Assembly (NCBI GenBank): GCA_017436905.1
Contig: JAFSCF010000012.1
Coordinates: 62,001 to 126,000, forward strand
Direction: 5' to 3'
Source: Clostridia bacterium
GTDB lineage: Bacteria; Bacillota; Clostridia; UMGS1810
DNA: 64,000 bases
Below the pieces are notes generated by a model, which made no database searches, had not been told where the DNA came from, and saw nothing but the letters and a program-made list of their open reading frames with translations. Position numbers and translations under genes: made by a program. Positions 47,754-53,543 of this stretch are shown here, in pieces. How positions within the stretch are numbered: the first letter of the stretch is position 1; each line of letters begins with the position of its first letter.

Positions 47754-48947
47754 TCATCTACAAATAGTATCTATTTTTTCAATAAAATCATCAAATGTGG
47801 TGGTGAAAATATAGTTCATAATGAGTATATCGTCAACATCATATTTTTCTACAAGTTCGTCTACAGTTCCGTAGTATGAGCGGGGGTCTACCGCCAATAC
47901 GGTTGTGTAATTATTTGTAAGCAAAGGCAAAAGCGCATTTGCATAAGAGTCTTTTATAACAAGTACAGTTTTGCCATTTGGAACGTCTGTATTAATCTCG
48001 GCAAGCGAGTGGTCACCACCCATAAACACGCTATATTTAGGTGTACCCTCGGGCGCAACGTAAATTCTGCTGTTATACTCAACCACTTTGCCGTTTTCCA
48101 TTGTAGATGCTTTTACGGCATAGTTGGTATCGCCCTCAAACCACTCAATTGTATCGGGCTTATTTGCAAGGCTTGTGTCGTTTGCCTGATTATATAAAAA
48201 GCCTAAAAATCCGTCGGCAGTTTTAAGTTTTAAAGACGAGAGTTCTACAGGCGTATGCCCTGCCGCCTCTGCAAATTTACTATACGCAAGGTATGCACCC
48301 CTTTGAGTCCAGTGATGGTCTGTACGGAAATATATATAATCGCCTGCATTTTCTTTCATTACATCATATGCGTTTACTTTGACCACATCATCAGAAATCG
48401 CGCCGTAAATTCTGTCTATAGCAGTTTTCTGGCTGTCAGATGATTTTGCATAAATATCTGCCGCAAATTCAATCTGCGTAGGTATAAGCATAGAGTACAC
48501 ATTTGCTTTGCCCGAAAAAGTATCTGCATATTTATTAACCGCAGCAGCGTATGCCGCACCGCTTTCAGGTTTATCTTTGTATATCTCCATAATGCGGTCA
48601 CCAAGCACAAGCAAACGTGAACTTTCGTTACTCTCTCCACCTGCACCGAGGTCTTTTTTAACAGACACTATATTTCCAAAGTTTGTTTTAATTCCTTTGA
48701 ACTCATTCACTTTAGACGAAAATGCAGTGAACTTACTGCGCATACCAACGTTATCGGCAAGGTATTCTTCAAACTCACGGGAAAAAGTTCCCGAAAACAG
48801 CGTTTGTGAAGTTAGTTCGGGCATTTCTTTCAAAGTTCTGTTTTCGTTTACGGCACTTTGCTCGTCTTCAGGCATAACAACGCCTATAACAAAAAATGCA
48901 AGGAGCAATGCCACAAAAACTGAAATTGTAATCTTTGTTTTCATCAT
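47754..48947 (-). CDS. DHHW family protein (AlgX/AlgJ-like O-acyltransferase partner)
   Basis: A 397-residue protein with one N-terminal membrane anchor and an SGNH-type extracellular domain. The DHHW motif lies at residues 210-213 in FRTDHHWTQRGAYLAYSKFA, and VFMGGDHSLAEIN and LVIKDSYANALLPLL (Ser of the SGNH fold) follow. With the MBOAT protein upstream it fits a module that transfers acyl groups to an exported polymer. ATG 48947 or 48944. Confidence 0.88.
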   Translation of the reverse strand: MMKTKITISVFVALLLAFFVIGVVMPEDEQSAVNENRTLKEMPELTSQTLFSGTFSREFEEYLADNVGMRSKFTAFSSKVNEFKGIKTNFGNIVSVKKDLGAGGESNESSRLLVLGDRIMEIYKDKPESGAAYAAAVNKYADTFSGKANVYSMLIPTQIEFAADIYAKSSDSQKTAIDRIYGAISDDVVKVNAYDVMKENAGDYIYFRTDHHWTQRGAYLAYSKFAEAAGHTPVELSSLKLKTADGFLGFLYNQANDTSLANKPDTIEWFEGDTNYAVKASTMENGKVVEYNSRIYVAPEGTPKYSVFMGGDHSLAEINTDVPNGKTVLVIKDSYANALLPLLTNNYTTVLAVDPRSYYGTVDELVEKYDVDDILIMNYIFTTTFDDFIEKIDTICR

Positions 48948-48959
48948 AATGCTCCTTTC

Positions 48960-50354
48960 TTAAAATCTGAAATACAAAAACGGATTGTATGTGGAGCCTA
49001 CCAGTAAGGTGAAAGATATTATAAGTACAACCGCAACAAGCAACGGCGAGCATACCACGCCTACCGCAGGATGTTTTTCTGTAATTTTAAGATACAGATT
49101 TTTCGGGTACGGTGTTGACGATACAAAAAGCAGAACAAGCAGAAAAACATTAGATGCCAATGTTGAAAGCGCTGTTAAATCCACCAATGCTCCGTTAGCG
49201 CCGAATGCTGCTTTTAAAAACAACCATATACTGCTCATATCAGTAAAATAGAACAGAGTCCAGCCGAAGAAAATGATTATGCTGCTATATATAAGTCCAA
49301 CCGGTTTTGGCAATTTCATAAGTTTTCCGCCAAAAAGTTTCTTTTCCACAATAAGAAGAATTCCGTAATAAAGCCCCCAAAGGATAAAGTTCCAACTTGC
49401 ACCGTGCCAAAAGCCTGTGAGCATCCACACAACAAGGATATTGCGTATCTGGAGTTTTCTGTTGCCGCCAAGCGGGATATACACATAATCCCTGAAAAAA
49501 CTGCTGAGCGACATATGCCATCTGCGCCAAAATTCGGTTACACTTGTAGATATATAGGGGTAGTTAAAGTTCTCAAGAAATTTAAACCCGAAAAATCTGC
49601 CCATACCTATAGCCATATCGGAATATCCTGAAAAATCAAAATAAATCTGGAATGTATACATTATCATTCCAAGCCAAGCGCCAAGTACCGAGGCAGAGGT
49701 TAAATCTCCGCCGATTAACGATGTGGCAACTGAACCTGCGCTGTTTGCAAGTATAACCTTTTTAAACATACCCTGCGCAAACCGGTACACACCGTATTCA
49801 AAATCCTGTGCAGTAACGGTACGGTTATTAATCTGCTTGTCAATATCTGCATAGCGCACAATCGGGCCTGCAACAAGCTGAGGGAACATTGAAAGATACG
49901 TAAGATATTTAAGCGGAGATTTCTGCACGTTTGTATCGCCACGATACACATCAATTGTATACGAAATTGTCTGGAATGTGTAAAAAGATATTCCAAGCGG
50001 CAGAGAAAATCCGTTAAACGGAATATCAAGTCCAGTTATCATATTGATATTATCAACAATAAATCCCGAATATTTGAACACAAACAATATACCAAGGTTT
50101 ATTATAAGTGAAGAAAGCAACGCCGTCTTAGCCCGCCAATCCCCTCTGAATTTATCTATCACTCGGGCACAGGTATAGTCTACCATTGCACTGAAAACAA
50201 GCATCAGCACCCACACGGGCTCGCCCCATGAATAAAATATTAGCGATGATATAACCAATACGATATTTTTATACGTTAAGTTCTTTGACAAGTTATATGC
50301 CAAAAGTACCGTCGGCAAAAATATGCATAAAAAGAGTAAACTTGAAAATACCAT
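48960..50354 (-). CDS. MBOAT family O-acyltransferase (AlgI-like)
   Basis: A 464-residue protein with about ten membrane helices. YFDFSGYSDMAIGMGRFFGFKFLENFNYPY, TEFWRRWHMSLSSFFRDYVYIPLGGNR and the catalytic histidine in LTGFWHGASWNFILWG are the AlgI/DltB pattern. It moves acyl groups across the membrane for transfer by the DHHW partners. Between two DHHW genes in one operon, 15 and 12 bases from them. Confidence 0.93.
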   Translation of the reverse strand: MVFSSLLFLCIFLPTVLLAYNLSKNLTYKNIVLVISSLIFYSWGEPVWVLMLVFSAMVDYTCARVIDKFRGDWRAKTALLSSLIINLGILFVFKYSGFIVDNINMITGLDIPFNGFSLPLGISFYTFQTISYTIDVYRGDTNVQKSPLKYLTYLSMFPQLVAGPIVRYADIDKQINNRTVTAQDFEYGVYRFAQGMFKKVILANSAGSVATSLIGGDLTSASVLGAWLGMIMYTFQIYFDFSGYSDMAIGMGRFFGFKFLENFNYPYISTSVTEFWRRWHMSLSSFFRDYVYIPLGGNRKLQIRNILVVWMLTGFWHGASWNFILWGLYYGILLIVEKKLFGGKLMKLPKPVGLIYSSIIIFFGWTLFYFTDMSSIWLFLKAAFGANGALVDLTALSTLASNVFLLVLLFVSSTPYPKNLYLKITEKHPAVGVVCSPLLVAVVLIISFTLLVGSTYNPFLYFRF

Positions 50355-50369
50355 TATTCAAACTCCTTA

Positions 50370-51800
50370 TTATCTTACCATATCGAGTATTGACTGCCGT
50401 ATGCCGGTAGAGCCTACAGATACCGGATAATTGATAATCACCAAATCGTCAAAATGTGTAAAGTTATAAAAATCAACAAGGTTAAAACGTTCGGTATTGC
50501 CGCCAAATCCGTTGAACTTGCGGGGGTCTATCACGTAAACCTCCTGATAATTATTAAGCGCCCACGTAGCAAAAGCGTTACCAAACGACTCTTTAATTAT
50601 TACCAGTTTTTTGCCGTTGTTTACGTTTGTAACCATAACTGCAAGCGGGTTGTCGCCACCTATAAAGCATGAATATGAATTGAGTTTTGCAGAAACAGGA
50701 GATATGTTTGCAATTTTATCGGTCATATACATATCTCTGTACGCACACGCCTGAACATCAACTATTGGTATAAAACGCTCTAAAAGTTCAGGGTTGGCAC
50801 GGATTTTATCACTAAGAGGTGTGTCTTTTGTAAAATTGGCAAATGAGCCTACGTGCGTTTCAGAATTATTTGCCGTAAAAGCAGAAAGTTCGGGCACGCT
50901 CCAACCTTTATTTGCGGCATATGCCCTGTACGCATAGTATGCACCGCGCTGTGTCCAGTGGTGGTCGGTTGAAAAATATATTTTTTCGTCTGCGTGCTCC
51001 ATAAGCGGCTTAACTGCGTTTATGGGAGTTACGTTAATCGCAAGGTTCTGATAGATTGTTTTAATGCCGTCTGTCTGGTAAGGTGCCATTTCTTTCGGAG
51101 CGTAGAACTCACCCGATGTAGGCACTACGATATTATATGTTTTAACCAAAGGCAGCGCAGACGCAACAGCGTTTACCACGTTTGCATAGTTAACAGCATT
51201 TTCACCCGACAATCCCACTCGTTCAAAGGCAAATGTACCAGCCATAGTTACACCGCCTCCGTAGGCAATATCTTCATTTGGCAGTCGGTAATCGTCTGTA
51301 ACATATGTATTTAAAAGCAGATCACGTTTATTAAACTCGGTTTCAGTAAGTTTACCGTCTAAAGTAACATAAAATCCCGTAAGATCTGAAAACATAGCAA
51401 GGCTCATATACAGTTTATCATGATACACCATGGTAGGCAGGTCGTATTCAAATCTTTGCGGTCCAACCCACATAACAGGGCTGTTCATAATTATGTACGA
51501 AGTTACATTACTTTTAACCGCAACAGTTGCCGGAAGCGATGCATCCCACCCCAAAGTAAAACCGCACTTGGGCAGAATATCGTCTACAGGCATAAAGATA
51601 TTGGAATAATAAAGCAGAATATCGTCGGAAAGTTCATACGACACACCGTTTATATCAAACTTTTTTTCTTCAGCATAAAGAGCCAACACCTTACTTTCAG
51701 GGTCGGCAGATGTATGGTAAGCGGTGCTGGGCGACAAAAGCATTGCAACCGCCAGAAATACAACTGTTAAAATCTTAGCGATTTTTTCTTTGTTTTTCAT
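50370..51800 (-). CDS. DHHW family protein with an N-terminal copper-amine-oxidase-like stalk domain
   Basis: A 476-residue exported protein (signal or anchor at residues 8-26). Residues 47-148 (FDINGVSYELSDDILLYYSNIFMPVDDILPKCGFTLGWDASLPATVAVKSN) match the copper-amine-oxidase-like N-terminal domain that is often surface-attached in Clostridia. The DHHW domain follows, with the motif at residues 279-282 (FSTDHHWTQRGAYYAY), FIGGDNPLAVM and VIIKESFGNAFATW. First gene of the operon. This fusion is unusual. Confidence 0.87.
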   Translation of the reverse strand: MKNKEKIAKILTVVFLAVAMLLSPSTAYHTSADPESKVLALYAEEKKFDINGVSYELSDDILLYYSNIFMPVDDILPKCGFTLGWDASLPATVAVKSNVTSYIIMNSPVMWVGPQRFEYDLPTMVYHDKLYMSLAMFSDLTGFYVTLDGKLTETEFNKRDLLLNTYVTDDYRLPNEDIAYGGGVTMAGTFAFERVGLSGENAVNYANVVNAVASALPLVKTYNIVVPTSGEFYAPKEMAPYQTDGIKTIYQNLAINVTPINAVKPLMEHADEKIYFSTDHHWTQRGAYYAYRAYAANKGWSVPELSAFTANNSETHVGSFANFTKDTPLSDKIRANPELLERFIPIVDVQACAYRDMYMTDKIANISPVSAKLNSYSCFIGGDNPLAVMVTNVNNGKKLVIIKESFGNAFATWALNNYQEVYVIDPRKFNGFGGNTERFNLVDFYNFTHFDDLVIINYPVSVGSTGIRQSILDMVR

Positions 51801-51913: not shown

Positions 51914-51942
51914 TTGCTACATATTTTATTTTGTGATAGAAT
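51914..51942 (+). promoter_or_regulatory. sigma-A promoter of the carboxypeptidase-like gene
   Basis: TTGCTA at 51914-51919 and TAGAAT at 51937-51942 with a 17-bp spacer. Confidence 0.55.
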
Positions 51943-51977: not shown

Positions 51978-53237
51978 ATGAACAAATCGATTTTAAAGTC
52001 ACTTTGCACAATTTTGATAATAATAACTCTTATTCCAACCGCTTTTGCAGACGAAATAAAGTTGGACGCAAAAAATGCAATACTTGTTGATATGCAAAAC
52101 TCTATGGTTTTGTACGATAAAAACAGCACAGAAATCATCCAACCCGCAGGATTTACAAAAATTGTTACCGCTATGGTGGTACTTGAAAATTGCGATGATT
52201 TAAGTCAGGTTATAGCCGCACCTAAAGACACAATTTCCAAATGCGATTTTTCGTTCGGTAATATGGGTATACTGGCAGAAGAGGAATTAAGCGCAAAAGC
52301 ATTGCTTGAAGGTATGCTTGTATATGATGCCGCAGAAGCAGCAGAAGTTCTTGCAGGATTTACATTTGGCAATTACGAAAAATTTATAGTTGCAATGAAC
52401 AATCTTGCAAAAGAAGCAGGTGCACAGAATACTGTTTTTAAAAACGCCGGCGGATATTATCACAAAGATCAACAGACAACTGTTGCTGATATTTCAAAAA
52501 TAGCGTTGTATGCCATGAAAAACGATGCGTTTGCCGAAATAGTAAAAAAAGGGATGGTGGAAATTAAGCCAACCAACAAATACCGCGATGTGCGATACCT
52601 TGCAAACACAAATATGTTTGTCGGCAGAACACGTTCGCTTGATTTTTATTCCGAAAGAGTTTTCGGCGTAAAAACATCGTATATGAAAGACCACGGCTAC
52701 GGAATATGCATAGCGTTTGAAAACAGCAAAGGCAAATTCTTGTGTGTAACAGCACAAGGAGCAGGTGCAGCCGCCGCACATACAGATGCGCAAACCATGC
52801 GTGAATACGTGGTTTCGGGATTTGTAAACGTAAAGATTGCCGACAAAGACGATATTATAGAAGAAGTAGAAGTGCCTAACGGAAAAACTTCGCACGTATT
52901 GCTTAAAACGGCTGATGAACTCTCTGTTCGCCTGCCGGTAGATTATGACGAATCAAAAATATTTCAGATGACCACAAAGGACAACAACCTGAGTGCCCCT
53001 ATTGAAAAAGATGAGGTTTTAGGTACACTCAGCGTATCTTACGACGGTAAAGAGGTCGGCAGTGTAGCGCTTATCGCATATGACAGTGTGGCGCACTCAG
53101 CCGGAAAAAGTGTGCAGATATTCTTTGAAAATATCTTTACATCTCCGTTTTTCTACCTGCCCGTTACAGTGCTTGTAATTTACTTTGCAATTATGGCATA
53201 CAAAGCTAACCGCAACAAAATACGCAGAAAAAAATGA
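51978..53237 (+). CDS. D-alanyl-D-alanine carboxypeptidase homologue lacking catalytic residues
   Basis: A 419-residue protein with a signal peptide (cut after about residue 24), a DacA/DacF-type S11 domain and, near residue 395, a C-terminal membrane helix (FYLPVTVLVIYFAIMAYKA). All three active-site motifs are altered: SxxK reads GFTK (residues 58-61, in QPAGFTKIVTAM), SxN reads DAA (residues 117-119), KTG reads KTS (232-234). Members of S11 need the Ser, so it should not cleave D-Ala; it may bind peptidoglycan or act as a scaffold. Divergent from the O-acylation operon. ATG 51978 follows AAAGGA. Confidence 0.85.
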   Translation: MNKSILKSLCTILIIITLIPTAFADEIKLDAKNAILVDMQNSMVLYDKNSTEIIQPAGFTKIVTAMVVLENCDDLSQVIAAPKDTISKCDFSFGNMGILAEEELSAKALLEGMLVYDAAEAAEVLAGFTFGNYEKFIVAMNNLAKEAGAQNTVFKNAGGYYHKDQQTTVADISKIALYAMKNDAFAEIVKKGMVEIKPTNKYRDVRYLANTNMFVGRTRSLDFYSERVFGVKTSYMKDHGYGICIAFENSKGKFLCVTAQGAGAAAAHTDAQTMREYVVSGFVNVKIADKDDIIEEVEVPNGKTSHVLLKTADELSVRLPVDYDESKIFQMTTKDNNLSAPIEKDEVLGTLSVSYDGKEVGSVALIAYDSVAHSAGKSVQIFFENIFTSPFFYLPVTVLVIYFAIMAYKANRNKIRRKK

Positions 53238-53248
53238 CATATAATGTG

Positions 53249-53277
53249 TTGACAATTATATAAATTCATTATATACT
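53249..53277 (+). promoter_or_regulatory. sigma-A promoter of acpP-rnc
   Basis: TTGACA at 53249-53254 and TATACT at 53272-53277 with a 17-bp spacer. Confidence 0.75.
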
Positions 53278-53312: not shown

Positions 53313-53543
53313 ATGGTATTTGAAAAAGTAAGAGATATTATTGTAGACCAACTCAATATAGACGAAGACGAAGTTGTTATGGAAGCGTCTTTTATAGACA
53401 CTCTCGGTGCAGACTCACTTGATTTGGTAGAACTTATGATAGCCATGGAAGAAGAATTTGAAATGACAATTCCCGAAGAGGACATTGACAAAATTTCAAC
53501 CGTAGGCAATGTAGTTGAATACATCGAATCACATTCTAAATAA
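53313..53543 (+). CDS. acpP: acyl carrier protein
   Basis: A 76-residue acidic helical protein with the phosphopantetheine site [19 protein letters not shown] (Ser in DSL near residue 36) and the end [16 protein letters not shown]. It carries acyl chains in fatty acid synthesis. GGAGGTG lies before ATG 53313. It pairs with rnc as in many Firmicutes. Confidence 0.96.

Follow-up and report, generated by a model that had tools for sequence, protein, structure and literature searches.

The stretch of DNA analysed here (the window, 64,000 nt, in contig C12 of genome G000) encodes a protein that belongs, by descent and fold, to the peptidase S11/PBP5-type family and is predicted from its motif residues to be inactive as a carboxypeptidase. 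In this protein and in several relatives the replaced cutting parts suggest a structural or regulatory job and not one of cutting. The reading proposed here as a whole, to which an even chance is given, is that of a PBP5-family pseudoenzyme in which catalysis was lost once and which has been retained as a membrane-tethered non-catalytic module. The features of the gene are listed in Table 1.

Table 1. Features of the inactive PBP5-type gene in the window; aa, residue numbers of the encoded protein.
Feature	Position	Strand	Basis or remark
Inactive PBP5-type (peptidase S11) gene, 419 aa	51978..53237	+	End coordinate includes stop
Signal-peptide-like N-terminus, aa 1-24, ...TAFA/DE	51978..52049	+	Sequence reading; cleavage site putative
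SxxK position, aa 58-61 = GFTK; Gly in place of the nucleophile Ser, Lys retained	52149..52160	+	Alignment
SxN position, aa 117-119 = DAA; second Ser replaced by Asp	52326..52334	+	Alignment
KTG position, aa 232-234 = KTS	52671..52679	+	Alignment
PBP5_C C-terminal beta domain, aa 282-371	52821..53090	+	Pfam E 2.4e-13; relatively conserved across the inactive clade
Likely membrane anchor: hydrophobic helix at about aa 390-410, then basic tail	53145..53207	+	Sequence, with predicted helix 390-418
Promoter-like site TTGCTA-17-TAGAAT, TG before second hexamer	51914..51942	+	Consensus match only

The translation of the gene is one unbroken frame of 419 aa. Residues 26-242 match Pfam Peptidase_S11 (E 6.8e-27, 94.9 bits against a cut-off of 27.6), and PBP5_C follows (50.5 bits against a cut-off of 21.2). 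In an alignment of the protein with 64 intact homologs, G58 takes the place of the SxxK serine, D117 and A119 those of the SxN serine and asparagine, and S234 that of the KTG glycine; all three catalytic D,D-carboxypeptidase motifs are altered (G58, DAA at 117-119 and KTS at 232-234). The motif lysines K61 (SxxK) and K232 (KTG) are both retained. The initial annotation had reported the readings GFTK, DAA and KTS within an intact frame and S11 fold, and the translation, the Pfam matches and the alignment agree with it. Its statement that all three motifs are lost holds for both serines, the Asn and the Gly, but not for the two lysines. As the nucleophile is absent, beta-lactam acylation of the protein is expected to be negative. 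The promoter-like site in Table 1 is weak, since 8 such sites are found in the region and 7.4 are expected in shuffles.

Structure modeling from eight aligned rows gives a mean pLDDT of 84. This second model displays the two-domain PBP5/PBP6 fold, and its best structural match is E. coli PBP6 (3it9_C; Z 38.7, rmsd 2.9, 336 residues aligned; Foldseek, VIA-align). An earlier model, built on three rows, was poor, with a mean pLDDT of 44.7, and is excluded from use. Helices at residues 3-16 and 390-418 are predicted by the second model; the signal peptide and the anchor are otherwise sequence readings.

S11 matches are present in 58 of the 60 relatives searched. Beside G000, six genomes of the same family carry an ortholog of the inactive protein: G002 (64% identity), G008 (40%), G009 (39%), G012 (34%), G013 (33%) and G006 (34%). 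All seven proteins are without both catalytic serines and without the KTG glycine, and the S11 proteins that give the best matches in other families have intact motifs. With profile A1, which was built from the same seven orthologs, these proteins score 577-636 bits, and the next score in the order is 262. By this search the inactive ortholog is carried by 7 of the 16 genomes of the order and is not seen in the other 9; these 16 family genomes are all the genomes of the order in the comparison. No further match above 375 bits was found by profile search in 391 genomes of the class, nor one reaching E 1e-104 in 398 genomes of the phylum, both sets being genome samples. A two-peptide-pattern scan of contigs gave matches in G002 and G008 only, and PADLOC gave no match.

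The seven orthologs form one clade in trees made with the motif columns removed, both in a rapid 71-row tree (SH-aLRT 100) and in a more thorough one of 77 rows (support 100/100). It branches from within the active S11 proteins of the class. It is very probable that catalysis was lost once in the ancestry of the order and that the gene was then retained. Besides the inactive ortholog, every one of the seven carriers has one or more S11 genes whose motifs are intact; in G013 these are partial genes only. A pseudogene peculiar to a single genome was considered and rejected, the losses being common to seven intact orthologs. Given the nine genomes without a copy, either the order can do without the gene or contig breaks conceal it. 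Breaks occur just upstream of the gene in five genomes (L058-L062), and it may be hidden in other assemblies.

A comparison of the inactive clade with the 64 active rows reveals which residues have been given up. Thirty-three positions are conserved in at least 90% of the active rows, and ten of these are lost in the inactive clade, i.e., kept by at most one of the seven orthologs: A57, S58, S117, N119, H165, A169, Y225, G234, T236 and A247. Positions that are kept, by at least six of the seven, include K61, E70, E102, F136, N141, G148, G159, D171, N212, G230, K232, P341 and G349. Both K61 and K232 are present in all seven. Position 117 is acidic throughout (Asp in six, Glu in one), position 58 is G or N, and position 234 is S, A or Y. 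All 69 other S11 rows examined retain S58, K61, S117, K232 and G234; as these rows are intact and six orthologs share the loss with the window protein, the motif loss is not due to chance.

The two domains differ in their conservation. The S11 domain is less conserved in the inactive proteins than in the active paralogs (identity 0.405 and 0.621; ten same-genome pairs, five genomes), whereas C-domain identity is higher for the inactive protein in 9 of the 10 pairs (means of 0.347 and 0.245). G013 was excluded from these pairs, its active paralog being a 302-aa fragment with a TAG. When pairs are matched for S11 identity (0.35-0.40), the identity of the C-domain is 0.336 for 7 inactive pairs and 0.247 for 404 active pairs (62 active rows, two of the 64 having failed the length filter). 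The near-active subfamily has a C-domain identity of 0.479 at an S11 identity of 0.619. Conservation of the C-domain may thus be in part inherited and belong to the subfamily instead of reflecting inactivation.

The substitution pattern indicates that the frame of the inactive gene remains under purifying selection. The orthologs have unbroken frames at identities as low as about 30%; a simple script that applies random mutations left no stop-free copy out of 500 at 0.2 base draws per site. Between G000 and G002 the gene has a dN of 0.268 and a dS of 2.91 (NG86), and the resulting dN/dS of about 0.09 is a rough figure because dS is saturated. The values for the neighbouring rnc gene are close to these, at 0.363 (dN) and 2.99 (dS).

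In G000 the inactive gene is divergent from an operon at window positions 47754-51800 (- strand). Pfam identifies its products as DHHW, MBOAT and DHHW, with ALGX-like matches, and one of the DHHW proteins has a copper amine oxidase N-terminal-type domain. Downstream of the inactive gene come an acyl carrier protein gene with a DSL motif (53313-53543, + strand) and then rnc. A promoter-like site with 11 of 12 matches is located by the acyl carrier protein gene, at 53249-53277. In the genus-mate G002, the inactive gene, rnc and the downstream block are kept, and the inactive gene is directly divergent from a pdxK-like gene; the three-gene DHHW operon is missing between them. PF14286 (DHHW) has no match in the genomes of the carriers G002 and G008. 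Over the 16 genomes DHHW is present in 5 of 7 carriers vs 5 of 9 non-carriers (Fisher p 0.63).

The contig stops shortly upstream of the inactive gene in the other five carriers (G008, G009, G012, G013 and G006). The upstream regions of these five share a divergent TTGACA-type, rRNA-type promoter, and a leader word is common to four of them, the G008 region being without an exact match. L060 starts with the reverse complement of the 16S 5' end, and G012 reaches the 16S start. Rfam gave no match at the contig ends, where the upstream stub is short, so the rRNA neighbour is putative, being read from the sequence.

The S11 genes of the order were surveyed as 48 PF00768 rows. Three rows were unread for motifs, two of them short fragments (G005:C51 and G013:C131) and the third below the cut-off (G012:C128, with no S11 there), and the row G005:C6 is without the SxxK part. 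The other 44 rows comprise 8 inactive proteins and 36 with intact SxxK. Separately, a group of S11 proteins in family f51 (L091, L096, L097 and L098) retains both serines and the lysines, but has SAA at SxN and KAG at KTG.

A second and more degenerate case of an inactive S11 protein is found in G003 (L133:4859-6124). It has V, R, D and Y at positions 58, 61, 117 and 119, and K and D at 232 and 234. The gene is 14 bases upstream of an OmpR-type response regulator gene, which is followed by a HAMP-PAS histidine kinase gene; the label WalRK-like used here for this pair reflects domains and gene order, not a specific model. G007 has an intact S11 protein at the same locus, with the same following genes (L159:1802-3055), and this protein is the best match of the G003 protein at about 28-29% identity. 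The G003 branch is very long (2.99 in the 77-row tree), and tree tests reject neither a grouping with the seven (p-AU 0.614) nor one with the proteins of G007, G005 and G010 (p-AU 0.438). An independent loss, separate from the seven-member clade, is probably represented by the G003 protein, in view of its best match and its shared locus with the intact G007 protein. Its basic-acidic pair (Arg and Asp) matches the Lys-acidic pair of the seven.

Several other explanations of the inactive clade have been weighed. A relic in slow decay, where catalysis is gone and the gene persists by chance under relaxed selection, would account for the faster evolution of the inactive proteins (a median of 1.36 times the path length of the active paralog in 15 genome pairs), a rate that also fits partial relaxation, and for the 9 of 16 genomes without a copy. 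It is nevertheless improbable in the face of seven intact frames over a divergence that saturates synonymous sites, of the low dN/dS (with its saturated dS) and of invariant structural residues together with a shared acidic replacement. The view of the initial annotation, that the gene has been kept for a non-catalytic use rather than decaying, is supported by the seven-member clade, the intact frames, the low dN/dS and the shared substitution pattern. Continued catalysis on another substrate, by a different residue set (e.g., Lys, Asp and a displaced nucleophile), could draw on Lys61, Lys232 and the invariant acidic residue, which remain in the cleft. Neither catalytic serine position has a Ser, Thr or Cys (G or N at the one, D or E at the other) and position 234 is variable, which makes this explanation quite improbable as well.

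The initial annotation had also proposed that the protein may anchor the products of the divergent DHHW/MBOAT operon, an O-acylation system, to peptidoglycan or guide them there. The operon is indeed adjacent and divergent in the window genome, but it is absent from the G002 locus, the carriers G002 and G008 have no DHHW match, and the neighbours differ in the remaining carriers. Neither a conserved neighbourhood nor co-occurrence with the operon is found, and coupling to it is rejected on the locus comparison and on the Fisher test given above. Nor is anchoring through the usual substrate cleft likely: Ser, Ala or Tyr stands in place of the KTG glycine, and E. coli PBP5 S44G loses its midcell localisation (PMC2909392). 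This explanation is hardly credible. A sensor of the cell wall or of beta-lactams, whose dead cleft binds stem peptides or muropeptides in an altered way and reports on the wall via a partner in the membrane, for instance a kinase of the WalK type, is unlikely, yet it is the most serious of these alternatives. It would be in keeping with the retention of K61 and K232 in all seven orthologs and with the G003 locus, where an inactive S11 gene adjoins the response regulator and HAMP-PAS kinase genes and where G007 has an intact one. On the other hand, no kinase gene is found beside the inactive gene in the window or in the Pfam-checked flanks, for the subset of neighbours scanned; the replaced KTG glycine should hinder canonical peptide binding; and G003 and the seven-member clade are probably separate losses. 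A broader and still less likely proposal is that the order has made PBP5-type carboxypeptidases into non-catalytic receptors of wall status at least twice, with a basic-acidic pair each time, signalling to membrane partners and once to a WalRK-like kinase in the same gene run.

The preferred reading, a retained non-catalytic module, can be outlined as follows. The ancestor would have been an active, exported and C-terminally anchored D,D-carboxypeptidase, whose Ser-Lys-Ser centre became Gly-Lys-Asp. In active PBPs the SxxK lysine sits beside the SxN serine. With this geometry Lys61 would probably be held in an ion pair with Asp117, so that the empty site is closed and stabilised; a side chain at the position of the KTG glycine would likewise be an obstacle to D-Ala-D-Ala binding of the usual kind. 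The protein may act through contacts with other proteins on the outer side of the membrane, in which its C-terminal beta domain would have a part. It would most likely modulate or position active wall enzymes, e.g., its own active S11 paralogs, in a manner likened to that of the inactive LytM proteins that regulate wall hydrolases. This regulatory mechanism is put forward tentatively, at somewhat less than an even chance.

A conserved inactive clade would show that the PBP5 fold, a drug target, can serve as a non-catalytic module, and for these genes the automatic annotation 'D-alanyl-D-alanine carboxypeptidase' misleads. The G003 gene beside a WalRK-like system offers a concrete place for testing wall sensing. 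No published description of an inactive PBP5-family pseudoenzyme was found in the open-licence literature.

Among known systems, E. coli PBP5 and PBP6 (DacA and DacC, both S11) share with the window protein the fold, the two-domain layout, a signal peptide and a C-terminal anchor, the last two being putative in the window protein. The window protein differs in that both catalytic serines, the SxN Asn and the KTG Gly are replaced. The anchors also differ, the likely one of the window protein being a hydrophobic helix with a basic tail and that of PBP5 an amphipathic helix (PMC2909392). The closest active homologs, with up to 38% identity and the same layout, are those of an active S11 subfamily of the class Clostridia (e.g., L006 of G025 and L079 of G094). 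This subfamily keeps PAS(T/I)TK, SAN(D/E) and KTG, whereas the window protein does not.

The laboratory mutant S44G of E. coli PBP5 has the same Ser to Gly change of the nucleophile. As described in PMC2909392, it has no penicillin binding and no D,D-carboxypeptidase activity, and its midcell localisation is lost; from this phenotype, a protein with the same change in nature would be expected to show no cutting and no substrate-dependent localisation. In the window protein, however, the change is natural and old and is joined by changes at the other motifs. The DacA of PDB entry 9a4z, cited below, is taken here to be active. That entry, a YxkC-DacA model, has DacA in a protein complex according to its title and suggests that PBP5-type proteins can have partners. 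A parallel for a regulatory role is provided by the LytM proteins DipM and EnvC, which, according to PMC10336132, have a wall-hydrolase fold without catalysis and act as regulators. The inactive LytM regulators differ from the window protein in having a metallopeptidase fold unrelated to S11, and in that their partners are known.
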